Of a stretch of 28,310 bases of DNA, positions 12,078 through 16,421 are shown one piece after another (within the stretch, counting starts at the first letter, position 1; the number at the start of each line of letters is the position of its first letter). Origin of the DNA: a virus. The notes under the pieces were generated by a model. The model ran no database searches and was not told where the DNA came from. It was given only the letters and a program-made list of their open reading frames with translations. The translations under genes were made by a program, and so were the position numbers. The stretch covers positions 1 to 28,310 of the IMG/VR virus record IMGVR_UViG_3300025131_000311; one strand, written 5' to 3'.

Positions 12078-13871
12078 ATGCCCTTTCCTAAGATAAAACT
12101 ATCAGATGACTCTGGCAATGCAGTTAGCGTAACTGATAATCGTCTTAATGTAAATGCATATCTATCAGCAACTCCTACAATAGATATTGGTGATGTATCA
12201 CTCTTGCTTGATGGTACAGCAGCAGATTATGGAACTGGCAATGTAAATACTTCTGGTAGAACTCTTCGTGTTACACTTGCAAGTGATGATTATCATTTTG
12301 GAGAAAAGGGAACAGCTGCTGATCATGATGGCACTATTCATGGACAGCTTAGATATATTGGCGATCAAGTTAAAAATGCATATGATGAATTAGTAGCTAT
12401 TGATGCTGATACAAATGTTCTTCTTTTAACTGCTCATACAGAAGATTCAGCACATAGTAATGCAGATATAGGTACGATGTCTCTTGCTGTTAGGAATGAT
12501 ACTCTTGCATCTTTAGTTAGTGATGATGGTGATTATGCTCCATTTCAAGTAAATGCAAATGGTGCTTTATATATAACTGGAGGTGAAGTTGAAAATGCTG
12601 CTGTTCAGAGTGAACCTTTACTTATAGGTGGTAGATATGATAGTTCGGCAAGAACACTTGATGATGGTGACGCTGGTGCAGTAGCTTTAAATGCTTCTGG
12701 ACATATGATTATGGATGTTGTAGATGGTGGTCAATTAGATACAATTATTGATACATTAGAGACTACATTAACAGCTATAGAAACAGATCAAGCAGCTATT
12801 GAAGCTTTACTTATTACTATAGATTCAGATACAGATGCAATTAAAACGGCTATACAGATTCTTGATGATTGGGATGATAGTAACTATGCAAATGTGAATA
12901 TTAATCTTGCTGGCAGTGATGCTCCAACTGGAGGTGGTACTGAATCTGGAGCATTAAGAGTTACTCTTGCTAATGATTCAACTGGAGTTATTAGTATTGA
13001 TGATGGTGGTAATACAATAACTGTGGATGGTACAGTTGATCTTGGTTCTACAGCAACAACCCATCTAAGTGAAATAGAAGGGGCAGTGGAGACTATCGAA
13101 GGTGCTATTAGTGGCAGTGAAATGCAGGTAGATATAGTATCTTCTGCAACATTAAGCGTTAATTCCCATGCAGTTACTAATGCAGGCACTTTTGCAACAC
13201 AAGTGGATGGCGATGCTTTAACTGCTTTACAACTTATTGATGATGCTGTTCATGTAGATGATGCTGGATTTACACTTGGTACTCATAAAGGTGTGATGAT
13301 GATGGGTTTTGCAGGTACGCAGAGTGTGGATGCCAATGATGCTGCTGCTCTTGCATGTAATCAAAGTGGCTTTTTGAAAGTTACTCTAGCAGGCCAGCTA
13401 TCAGCCTTTGTCAATGCTAGTGATGAAACTCTTGGTACTTCTACTTATAGCGAAACCAGCACTACTGGTTCAGTTATTGGTGTAGTTAGGAATGATACTC
13501 TTGCAGCCTTGGCAGGTACAGACAATGAAATTGCTCCGTTGCAGGTAGATGCACAGGGAGCATTATATACCACTCATGGTATGACTGGTCTTGCAAGTGA
13601 TGATAATCCAACTGTCGGTACAAGTGCAGAAGCAATTACTACTGATGGTGCTGATGGTGCTGCTGCTTGTAAGCGTATGGATATTATGTCACATCCAGCT
13701 AACACTGGTGAAATATGGGTAGGTGATGCTGCTGTTACTACTAATGGGGCGAATGGTGGGATACGACTTTTACCTGGAGATGTTTATAGTATAGATATAG
13801 ATAATACAGGCGATGTTTATGTGGTAGCAACTGTTAATGGTGAAAATGTTTGTTATAATTATTATACATAA
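12078..13871 (+). CDS. Large repeat-containing putative tail fibre
   Basis: A 597-aa protein, Asp/Ala/Thr/Gly-rich, with internal repeats. VRNDTLA(S/A)L, followed by a short spacer, AP(F/L)QV(N/D)AxGALY and a T-rich end, occurs near residues 137-170 and 470-498. LRVTLA(S/N)D occurs near residues 58 and 294. A short helical stretch (about 215-270, TIIDTLETTLTAIETDQAAI) probably trimerises the shaft. The C-terminal about 90 residues (EAITTDGADGAAACKRMDIM, then GEIWVGDAAV, LLPGDVYSIDIDNTGDVYVV and a Tyr-rich end) form a beta domain I associate with ends of marine-phage fibres. It has almost no Shine-Dalgarno and starts 12 bases after the previous gene. A receptor-binding or shaft role is likely. 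Confidence 0.6.
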   Translation: MPFPKIKLSDDSGNAVSVTDNRLNVNAYLSATPTIDIGDVSLLLDGTAADYGTGNVNTSGRTLRVTLASDDYHFGEKGTAADHDGTIHGQLRYIGDQVKNAYDELVAIDADTNVLLLTAHTEDSAHSNADIGTMSLAVRNDTLASLVSDDGDYAPFQVNANGALYITGGEVENAAVQSEPLLIGGRYDSSARTLDDGDAGAVALNASGHMIMDVVDGGQLDTIIDTLETTLTAIETDQAAIEALLITIDSDTDAIKTAIQILDDWDDSNYANVNINLAGSDAPTGGGTESGALRVTLANDSTGVISIDDGGNTITVDGTVDLGSTATTHLSEIEGAVETIEGAISGSEMQVDIVSSATLSVNSHAVTNAGTFATQVDGDALTALQLIDDAVHVDDAGFTLGTHKGVMMMGFAGTQSVDANDAAALACNQSGFLKVTLAGQLSAFVNASDETLGTSTYSETSTTGSVIGVVRNDTLAALAGTDNEIAPLQVDAQGALYTTHGMTGLASDDNPTVGTSAEAITTDGADGAAACKRMDIMSHPANTGEIWVGDAAVTTNGANGGIRLLPGDVYSIDIDNTGDVYVVATVNGENVCYNYYT

Positions 13872-14254
13872 TGCCTAATTCAATTACAAGAGATCATCAT
13901 AATTTTTATAGAACTGCTAGTTTTATAGTTCAATCAGGGACAGATGCTGTATCTATAAATTGGTCACTGGGGAATAAATATCACTTGCTTATGGAGAATA
14001 ATAGTACAGTAACATTTGCTACTAATCCAATCAATCCTTGCAATTTACTTTTAAAGGTAGCACAAGGGAATGGGGGTAGCAAGGTTATCACTTGGGCTGT
14101 AACATCAGGAACTATATATTGGGCTGGTGGTGGCATACTAAATACAGATGAGCCGACACTTACTACAACTGATGACAAGACGGATATATTAACTTTTTAT
14201 TTTGATGGAACTAACTACTTCGGAGTTGCTTCCTTGGACTTTGATACTACATAA
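13871..14254 (+). CDS. Small jelly-roll-like phage tail protein
   Basis: A 127-aa protein with a pattern widely seen in phage receptor-binding modules: a strand with a small polar core (LLMENNSTVTFATNPINPCN), then LLLKVAQGNGGSKVITWAV, then IYWAGGG, and DKTDILTFYFDGTNYFGVAS at the end. Similar modules are often found as C-terminal domains of larger tail proteins; here it is a stand-alone gene. It begins by TAATG overlap with the 597-aa fibre and no visible Shine-Dalgarno, so it is probably translated by coupling, perhaps in set ratio with that fibre. A tip or side-domain of the adhesion apparatus is likely. No catalytic residues are evident. Confidence 0.6.
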   Translation: MPNSITRDHHNFYRTASFIVQSGTDAVSINWSLGNKYHLLMENNSTVTFATNPINPCNLLLKVAQGNGGSKVITWAVTSGTIYWAGGGILNTDEPTLTTTDDKTDILTFYFDGTNYFGVASLDFDTT

Positions 14255-14811
14255 TGGCATTTAAAGATACTATATTAACCTTTGAAGATGATAAGATAGT
14301 TGCGGATGATAATTATCATAATATGGAAGTAATGATGTCTTGGGAAGCTCCGATAATGGAAAAGAGTGCAGAATATATTTGTGAAAGTAAAGGAGATATT
14401 TTAGAAATAGGCTTTGGTATGGGTATATGTTCAGATTATATACAAGCACAAGGTGTTAATTCTCATACAATTGTAGAGATACATCCCCAGATAATTGAGA
14501 AACTTAAAGTATGGGCTAAAGATAAGGATAATGTTACTATTGCAGAGGGTGATTGGAATAGTCTAGAGCTAGGGACTTATGATGGTATATTTTTAGATAC
14601 ATTTGGAGATGACAATTTAGACAAGTTTAAAGGCTTTGTTTTATCTAAAGCTAAAAGTGGGGCTAAAGTAACTTATTGGAATAACTATGGCAGGGAGGAC
14701 AATCAGCATAACTTTTCCTCTATTAGCCATGAAGTTATAAGTATCGCCCCAGAATCAAATCAATACACAAAGATTAAAGATGGCTATTATATGCCAAAGG
14801 TGGTGATATAA
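14254..14811 (+). CDS. GAMT/arginine N-methyltransferase-like SAM-dependent methyltransferase
   Basis: A 185-aa class I methyltransferase fold. Motif I is ILEIGFGMG (49-57), the SAM ribose-binding acid lies in IVEIHP (73-78), and GDW (99-101) and YDGIFLDTF (109-117) follow. Upstream, VMMSWEAPIM (26-35) matches the WExPxM segment typical of guanidinoacetate methyltransferase (GAMT) and of the RMT2 arginine methyltransferase. In that family the Glu of this segment and the Asp of the YDT motif hold the guanidino group; both are present (Glu31, Asp115). The end, GYYMPKVVI, also resembles GAMT. It is shorter than GAMT (about 236 aa in animals), mostly at the N-terminus. It has no Shine-Dalgarno and starts by TAATG overlap between two adhesion genes. 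Substrate unknown: protein arginine or a free guanidino compound. Confidence 0.75.
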   Translation: MAFKDTILTFEDDKIVADDNYHNMEVMMSWEAPIMEKSAEYICESKGDILEIGFGMGICSDYIQAQGVNSHTIVEIHPQIIEKLKVWAKDKDNVTIAEGDWNSLELGTYDGIFLDTFGDDNLDKFKGFVLSKAKSGAKVTYWNNYGREDNQHNFSSISHEVISIAPESNQYTKIKDGYYMPKVVI

Positions 14812-15482
14812 TGGCAATTGTTTATGCTGGCTTAGGAGATAGTTATGTTCTAAGAACAAGCGCAACAAATTGGGATGATGCTCAAGGGAGTGCAACTATT
14901 AATGGTACTGCCCAGCACTCTGGTAGAACGGTTTACAGTCTTGGAGTTTATGCAAGAACTTTAGGTGGAAGAGGGGGTACTACCTATTTTTGTTATAGAA
15001 GTTATTTTGGTTTCAACCTTTTATCTGAAAGTGGAACTATAGATAGTGCGACTATATCCATCTATCTTGATAATTTGGGAGATACAGGTAATAGTGGTAA
15101 GGCTATATTGGTAAAGGCTACTGCTCTTGATGATGGCGTAGAAGATCATGGAAATGTATTTTCAAGTGGAACAACTTGGCATGATGATATATCAAGTTCT
15201 GTTGATGTAAGCACCACGGAAGGCTATCATGATTTTGATTTAAATAGTGATGGTATTGCACATTTGCAAAGTGCGATTGATTCGAGTGGTACTGCTTTTG
15301 TGGGACTTGTTAGTTATTATCATGACTATGGAGAACATGCACCTGCGTCTGGTGGCGATTATAGTAAATTTCAAGTAACTTATACTAACTACACAGGTAC
15401 ATCAAGAGACCCGAAGGTAGATATAACTTATGCAATAACAGCAGCAACAGATAACGCAACATTTTTTGGAGCAAACTTTTAA
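14811..15482 (+). CDS. Beta-rich putative carbohydrate-binding tail protein
   Basis: A 223-aa protein predicted all-beta. It holds YRSYFGFNLLSESGTIDSAT, then ISIYLDNL, AILVKATALDDG and YHDFDLNSDGIAHLQSAIDS, and ends in VDITYAITAATDNATFFGAN. The pattern of a framework strand (SYFGFNL), then IDSATISIYL, and a final strand matching a Y-x-T-Y end recalls the beta-sandwich DNRLRE-type modules that bind or sit beside carbohydrate. The Cys and His are sparse, so no metal site is evident. The AGGTGG Shine-Dalgarno is good even though the start overlaps the methyltransferase stop. As the last gene of the adhesion module it is a good candidate receptor-binding component. Confidence 0.5.
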   Translation: MAIVYAGLGDSYVLRTSATNWDDAQGSATINGTAQHSGRTVYSLGVYARTLGGRGGTTYFCYRSYFGFNLLSESGTIDSATISIYLDNLGDTGNSGKAILVKATALDDGVEDHGNVFSSGTTWHDDISSSVDVSTTEGYHDFDLNSDGIAHLQSAIDSSGTAFVGLVSYYHDYGEHAPASGGDYSKFQVTYTNYTGTSRDPKVDITYAITAATDNATFFGANF

Positions 15483-15641: not shown

Positions 15642-16421
15642 ATGCCTAAAGCGGACAAGGGTGTCGTCAAAAGAGCAATAGTAACACCAGACAAACACTT
15701 TCCCTTGCACGACCAGCGGGCAATAAACTGTCTCAAAAGAGCCATAGAGATAGTAAGGCCAGATGCTTACATAGATCTGGGTGATGTGGGGGAGTTTCAT
15801 GCTTTTTCCGCTTGGAAGTTCAAGCGTATAAAAAAGCCACCGCTGGAATACTTGATTGAAAGTTTTGATCAAGATGTGGAAGATGCAAATAAAGGGATGG
15901 ATCAGATAGATGAATCCCTGGATAAGGTTAACTGTAAAGAGAAGTATATTACAGAAGGTAATCATGATAACTGGCTTAATATGGCAGTTGAAATGTATCC
16001 ATATCTTCCAAGTTATAAGTTTGCCAATGCAGTTAAGTTAAAAGAAAGAGGGTATACGTACTACCCATTTGGTAAGGCTTTAAAGATAGGAAAGCTTTAC
16101 TTTTATCACGGTCACCAATATGGTGGCATGTATCACACTGCAAACCACCTCCGGAAAATGGGGTGCAATGTTATGTACGGGCATTGGCATGATTTACAAC
16201 AGATGACTGCGACTCATATGGATGGACCCAAAGCTGCATGGAGTATAGGGTGTTTGAAAGATATGAGTCCAAAGGCCAATGATTGGCTTGCAAATAGAAA
16301 TAACAACTGGGCACATGCATTTGCTATAGTTGACTTCTATAAAGCTGGTTTGTTTACGGTGCATGTCATACAAATAATAAACGGAAAGACCTCATTGTGG
16401 GGTGAATTAATTGAGGGTTGA
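15642..16421 (+). CDS. Calcineurin-like metallophosphoesterase
   Basis: A 259-aa protein with the full set of two-metal phosphoesterase motifs: DKH at 17-19 (D-x-H), GDVGE at 47-51, GNHDNW at 106-111, YHGH at 155-158 and GHWH at 180-183. These would bind a dimetal centre and hydrolyse phosphomonoesters, diesters or nucleic-acid ends. No signal peptide or membrane segment is visible, so it is cytoplasmic or virion-associated. The Shine-Dalgarno is AGGGAG. It lies between small membrane-protein genes rather than with replication genes. Possible substrates are nucleotides, DNA ends or cell-wall/lipid phosphates; the sequence does not decide. The family assignment is secure. Confidence 0.9.
   Translation: MPKADKGVVKRAIVTPDKHFPLHDQRAINCLKRAIEIVRPDAYIDLGDVGEFHAFSAWKFKRIKKPPLEYLIESFDQDVEDANKGMDQIDESLDKVNCKEKYITEGNHDNWLNMAVEMYPYLPSYKFANAVKLKERGYTYYPFGKALKIGKLYFYHGHQYGGMYHTANHLRKMGCNVMYGHWHDLQQMTATHMDGPKAAWSIGCLKDMSPKANDWLANRNNNWAHAFAIVDFYKAGLFTVHVIQIINGKTSLWGELIEG

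Follow-up and report, generated by a model that had tools for sequence, protein, structure and literature searches.

A GAMT-type methyltransferase paired with a putative glycan-binding adhesin in marine phages: a candidate protein arginine methyltransferase

Abstract

A 28,310-base virus record carrying structural genes of a tailed phage (the whole stretch analyzed, here called the window) encodes a 185-amino-acid (aa) protein that is probably a SAM-dependent guanidino N-methyltransferase of the guanidinoacetate methyltransferase (GAMT) fold, modifying one virion protein, the adhesin c1 encoded directly downstream. The evidence in hand comprises homology, fold, conserved guanidino-contacting acids, a gene cassette, and covariation of the enzyme with an Arg-Gly turn in c1. 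We hold a broader reading with less conviction, as a possibility on which we would not yet bet: that a widespread marine-phage cassette supplies a dedicated type IV-like (delta-N) arginine methyltransferase that modifies the exposed Arg-Gly hairpin of the phage's own adhesin, and that this receptor-recognition switch has been mistaken for creatine metabolism. If it is true, the phage would encode a protein arginine methyltransferase whose target residue, on an adhesin of the virion, can be identified, and the recent finding of methylated phage virion proteins, which has lacked an explanation, would become testable with a single enzyme, a single substrate, and a single residue.

Results

The window encodes an SU10-type major capsid protein at 976 to 2568 on the plus strand (PF17236; Pfam E value of 5e-20) and, elsewhere, several tail-spike and fiber-like proteins. 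The major capsid protein had no relatives among the phage records searched, cultured phages included. As the phage record collection has no relative of this SU10-type capsid protein, the phage group appears to be uncultured.

The genes of interest follow one another on the plus strand. A 597-aa fiber-type protein (12078 to 13871; neighborhood cluster c16), which gave no informative Pfam or PHROG match, is followed by a 127-aa open reading frame (ORF) at 13871 to 14254 (cluster c2) that corresponds to the C-terminal part of long fiber proteins (match to the C terminus of phrog_5596; E value of 6e-7). Whether these two ORFs are joined or split varies among relatives, and in many the counterpart of the 127-aa ORF is fused into a single fiber-type ORF of 400 to 900 aa. 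The methyltransferase ORF (14254 to 14811) begins with an ATG that overlaps the upstream stop by 1 base (TAATG), and its own stop shares 1 base with the ATG of c1 (14811 to 15482; 223 aa). Coordinates and translation thus confirm the original prediction of a real 185-aa ORF with stop/start overlaps on both sides. A calcineurin-like phosphoesterase gene lies near the cassette at 15642 to 16421 on the plus strand (phrog_221; 2e-26); its cluster is present in 34 of 84 loci, at variable distances from the cassette.

The translation contains the class I SAM motif (LEIGFGMG, within motif I, ILEIGFGMGI, residues 49 to 58, at 14398 to 14427), a WEAPIM segment, and the sequence YDGIFLDT, as had been read from the DNA before any database search. 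In alignments, Glu31 (codon at 14344 to 14346) and Asp115 (codon at 14596 to 14598) pair with Glu46 and Asp135 of human GAMT (Glu45 and Asp134 in rat), in agreement with the earlier claim that both guanidino-contacting acids are kept. When the single sequence was searched against the PDB with phmmer, GAMT was the only significant match, with four GAMT sequences at an E value of about 1e-10 followed by KsgA at 0.1; a 19-sequence profile brought GAMT to 1e-17. The AlphaFold2 model of the enzyme (mean pLDDT of 93.6) placed GAMT at Foldseek ranks 1 to 5 (E value of 1.5e-13; TMq of 0.83; ~23% identity), and the first non-GAMT match, at 4e-7, was six orders of magnitude behind.

In Pfam, PHROGs, and NCBIfam the enzyme matched nothing more specific than class I methyltransferases, or no family at all, and no protein arginine methyltransferase (PRMT) family of types I to III was matched in Pfam at E values up to 1 or in NCBIfam. 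KsgA/Erm, spermidine synthase, and TehB, which appeared as weak profile or fold matches, were clearly weaker than GAMT and were rejected as identities. A DNA methyltransferase was rejected as well: the motif (D/N/S)PP(Y/F) is absent, as originally noted, the translation has no PP dipeptide at all, and no DNA methylase family was matched in Pfam, PHROGs, or NCBIfam. Neither a fold without the GAMT-type pocket nor a clear match to another family, the outcomes named beforehand as counting against a guanidino-methyltransferase, was obtained. With GAMT the best match by both sequence and structure, and with both acids invariant in the viral family, the sequence and model support a GAMT-type guanidino-methyltransferase fold. 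The phage enzyme resembles GAMT (3orh, 1xcj, and 1khh) in its fold, SAM motifs, WE-x-P-x-M segment with Glu45, Asp134, GxW, and LTYxN strand; it differs in size (185 aa versus 236 aa) and in having a shorter stretch after the catalytic Asp.

The two acids were compared between viral and bacterial homologues. Glu31 is kept in 84 of 84 viral sequences and Asp115 in 83 of 83, and together with the SAM motif I residues, E75, and W101 they are invariant in viral sequences down to ~45% identity. Among 76 bacterial homologues, 45 have Gln at the E31 position and 50 have His at the D115 position; the viral sequences fall together on one side of a supported branch. We take Glu45 of GAMT to contact the guanidino group, as in the GAMT ternary complexes. 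Asp134 is the acceptor of the substrate proton (PMC12471008), which would make Asp115 the catalytic base. Since the acid pair is invariant in viruses while bacterial homologues mostly carry Gln or His, the sequences indicate that it is a maintained feature and does not simply come with the fold. The same invariance bears on whether this methyltransferase fold has lost catalysis and acts as a chaperone, structural or in assembly, for the adhesin. The small size of the protein (185 aa) and the overlap of its gene with one that likely encodes a structural protein are compatible with such a role, but invariance of SAM motif I, E75, W101, and both acids is unlikely in a dead enzyme, and we regard a chaperone as highly improbable.

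The bacterial GAMT-like proteins (L085 to L163; GTDB), which mostly carry Gln and His at the two positions, are a large group. Many flavobacteria have a 262-aa form, and Chlamydiae and their relatives have forms of 300 to 330 aa. Other copies are parts of ORFs of 1200 to 2800 aa, and a GAMT-like domain lies within ORFs of 704 and 519 aa (L104 and L106; Rhodobacteraceae and Sciscionella), which are possible fusions.

A profile search of IMG/VR gave 442 contigs with relatives of the enzyme, most of them genome fragments, and the best 80 of the 442 were fetched. Loci obtained through the enzyme are therefore its closest relatives, mostly at least 52% identical, and more distant members may lack c1. 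One GenBank record holds a relative, a 45% identical copy in the 635-kb uncultured phage LR745206.1; the search of cultured phages gave no match to c1 and, for the enzyme, only LR745206.1. In all 84 loci examined the gene before the enzyme encodes a fiber-type protein. The next gene is c1 in 80 of the 82 loci with a downstream ORF, and in 78 of those 80 its start is 0 to 1 base away from where the methyltransferase gene ends; within the enzyme loci the c1 profile matched only the gene adjoining the methyltransferase. One of the two exceptions, L061, lies at the edge of its contig, where the first 59 residues of c1 are still encoded; the other is LR745206.1, in which c1 is found nowhere in the record. 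Because the outer neighbor genes differ between contigs, the enzyme and c1 behave as a cassette.

In LR745206.1 the enzyme follows three giant fiber genes (1075, 1169, and 762 aa), and the adjoining 762-aa fiber has a single RG (SRGT at 574). We counted this record, with the enzyme after fiber genes and without c1, against adhesin methylation. It speaks for an enzyme that methylates the upstream fiber or another tail protein, the RG turn of c1 being only a docking site, and the fiber-type gene directly upstream of the enzyme is in line with this. Against a fiber target, the fiber C termini that adjoin the enzyme fall into two or more types with no Arg conserved in half of them, for which reason we rejected the fiber C terminus as the substrate, and the specific covariation described below is with c1. 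We give a fiber or other tail protein a low probability as the target.

The protein c1 had been proposed to be a carbohydrate-binding neighbor, which its predicted fold and weak family matches support. The window copy has no Pfam match of its own; 10 of 59 c1 relatives weakly match Pfam CBM96 (best E value of 8e-4), in partial alignments below the curated cutoff level. The best folds for the c1 model (pLDDT of 90.5) are a chondroitin sulfate-binding module (8wab) and CBM96 (7vbo), with E values of 2e-7 to 1e-6, yet identity to these is 13 to 14%. Copies of c1 are very divergent (18 to 46% identity to the window copy), and Arg54 (codon at 14970 to 14972) and Arg63 are invariant among those adjoining the enzyme. 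Since strands 41 to 53 and 56 to 69 of the model flank residues 54 and 55, Arg54, within GGRGG, is predicted to sit at an exposed hairpin tip.

In CBM96, Ser30, Ser33, and Asp34 form part of the wall of the alginate groove, and binding requires Lys31 (PMC9971899). Because these residues come before the strand that corresponds to c1 residues 63 to 68, the c1 hairpin tip lies plausibly, by analogy, at the glycan face; turn lengths differ, and we claim no residue-level match. A one-to-one equivalence of c1 Arg54 with CBM96 Lys27, considered from spacing (PMC9971899), was rejected, as in genuine CBM96 sequence the turn length differs and the Arg that precedes the FD motif is displaced by one position from c1 Arg63. 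The GRGG tip of c1 differs from the CBM96 domains of the one genome read at this turn (Agaribacillus), none of which has it. The C termini of c1 proteins (e.g., at 15450 to 15479 in the window) end in either a conserved FFGANF tail or a repeat-like ANIGKVNxV tail, possibly a docking or recombination element.

We examined whether the tip residues follow the presence of the enzyme. Homologues of c1 were gathered by peptide patterns excluding Arg54 and the methyltransferase and were pooled with the enzyme-found loci; c1 searches of viral contigs were run with subfamily alignments. The resulting set held 164 distinct c1 domains with a readable upstream gene, 112 with the enzyme and 52 without. Arg-Gly occupied the tip in 110 of 112 domains with the enzyme versus 11 of 52 without it, and Arg did so in 112 of 112 versus 21 of 52 (Fisher test for association, 6e-26, kinship ignored). 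As a control, c1 columns were ranked by their conservation in the enzyme-bearing set. Between that set and the enzyme-less set, Arg54 fell from 1.00 to 0.39 and Gly55 from 0.98 to 0.33, and the next largest column drops were about 0.35. Arg63 (codon at 14997 to 14999), the control residue that is invariant with or without the methyltransferase, and Phe68 stayed at 1.00 in the enzyme-less set, and nearly all other strongly conserved columns were unchanged.

With the hairpin columns left out of the tree, a Pagel-type test, a kind that can overstate support on clustered traits, strongly favored a dependent over an independent trait model (2dlnL of 55.9; p of 2e-11). The fitted rate of enzyme loss was 9.3 without RG versus 0.2 with RG. 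Phylogenetically independent pairs gave 4 to 5 in the expected direction, none against, and 5 to 6 ties (sign test p of 0.06 to 0.25), so the direction of the covariation is uniform but its replication is limited. In enzyme-less contigs c1 comes directly after the fiber gene, with the same overlap in most; 45 of 48 such records hold no trace of the enzyme, and the other 3 retain its C-terminal end at the contig edge.

These data also bear on the view that Arg54-Gly55 is an ancestral turn, that its association with the enzyme reflects shared descent and sampling, and that the real target lies elsewhere, e.g., a host surface molecule or defense protein. The nonsignificant sign test, the 11 enzyme-less c1 copies that keep RG, and the concentration of many enzyme-less sequences in few clades agree with shared descent. 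Against it, the other conserved c1 columns show no such drop in those enzyme-less sequences, the tree-based likelihood test strongly favors dependence, and gains and losses of the enzyme are clean and occur at one and the same junction. On balance, we think it improbable that descent and sampling account for the association.

Besides the 11 of 52 enzyme-less c1 copies with RG, ten more keep Arg without Gly, and for this reason the tip Arg may have some value when unmethylated, or another enzyme may act on it. Several enzyme-less copies have Lys at the tip (L234/L235, L253/L254, and L298). The enzyme-less c1 clade L195 to L223 has a shorter hairpin, with RTKRF in place of RGG.

Discussion

Two substrates had originally been offered for this enzyme, an arginine of a virion protein and a small guanidino compound. 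Linkage and covariation favor the first and point to Arg54 of c1 as the candidate residue. In the mechanism that we propose, the enzyme and c1, made from the same message, would meet, and the enzyme would methylate Arg54 at the tip of the Gly-Arg-Gly-Gly beta-hairpin, near the expected glycan-binding face of an adhesin presumably carried on the virion. Methylation might tune how the adhesin binds acidic polysaccharide of the host surface, and so adsorption, or it might protect the adhesin.

The second substrate corresponds to an auxiliary metabolic gene whose product, inside the infected cell, would make creatine as a true GAMT or methylate some other small guanidino compound. The nearest solved relatives are indeed GAMT, both guanidino-contacting acids are kept, and virus-encoded K00542 has been interpreted in this way in PMC11360552. 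Unlike GAMT, however, the phage gene sits inside a fiber/adhesin cassette and not among metabolic genes, and an amidinotransferase partner (PF02274) was found in 0 of 41 records with the controls working, these records being mostly fragments and the enzyme being one that a host could supply. Creatine kinase (PF00217) likewise gave no match in the records, in a search whose controls were equally silent. The stretch after Asp115 is 10 residues (D115 to F125) versus 14 in GAMT, and creatine synthesis offers no explanation for covariation with the RG turn of an adhesin. The cassette context, the lack of an amidinotransferase in the 41 records, and the covariation argue for a role other than creatine synthesis, and we consider a metabolic role unlikely.

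If the enzyme does act on Arg54, the nitrogen that it modifies may be suggested by its relatives. The methyl group that GAMT transfers goes to the nitrogen carrying the carboxymethyl group, the counterpart of the arginine delta nitrogen, and yeast RMT2 presumably has a GAMT-type catalytic domain that acts on protein arginine. Because both of these enzymes modify the internal nitrogen of the guanidino group and the phage enzyme retains the two acid contacts, the product would by analogy most likely be delta-N-monomethylarginine. RMT2 is a type IV enzyme that forms delta-N-methylarginine on Rpl12 Arg67, an activity said to be specific to fungi and plants (PMC3365026). Our likening of the phage enzyme to RMT2 is by description, with no RMT2 entry among the PDB matches, and the two differ in substrate and setting. 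If our reading is true, delta-N arginine methylation might extend beyond fungi and plants.

Methylated virion proteins have been described in phages. Cellulophaga phages carry methyl-arginine and methyl-lysine on virion proteins of free virions, tail fibers included, as reported in 2026; they have no known encoded methyltransferase, and host enzymes were proposed (PMC13288928). The open-licence literature yielded nothing further on phage-encoded protein arginine methyltransferases acting on virions.

The gene itself had been recorded before, which qualifies the original description of a possible unreported system. Viral GAMT (K00542) appears, in nine virus populations, in a 2024 global-ocean catalogue of auxiliary genes, where it is 85-fold enriched over microbial homologues and is the most virus-enriched gene; the passages on this gene interpret it as creatine synthesis in low-oxygen Arctic water and make no use of gene context (PMC11360552). 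The catalogued K00542 sequences are probably the family of the phage enzyme or a part of it, and adhesin methylation, if true, would overturn the creatine-synthesis reading given there to the survey's most virus-enriched gene. A protein of an uncultured marine phage, A0A8D9CBY1 (44% identity; TMq of 0.92), is likewise already named a putative guanidinoacetate methyltransferase, its record giving the name only.
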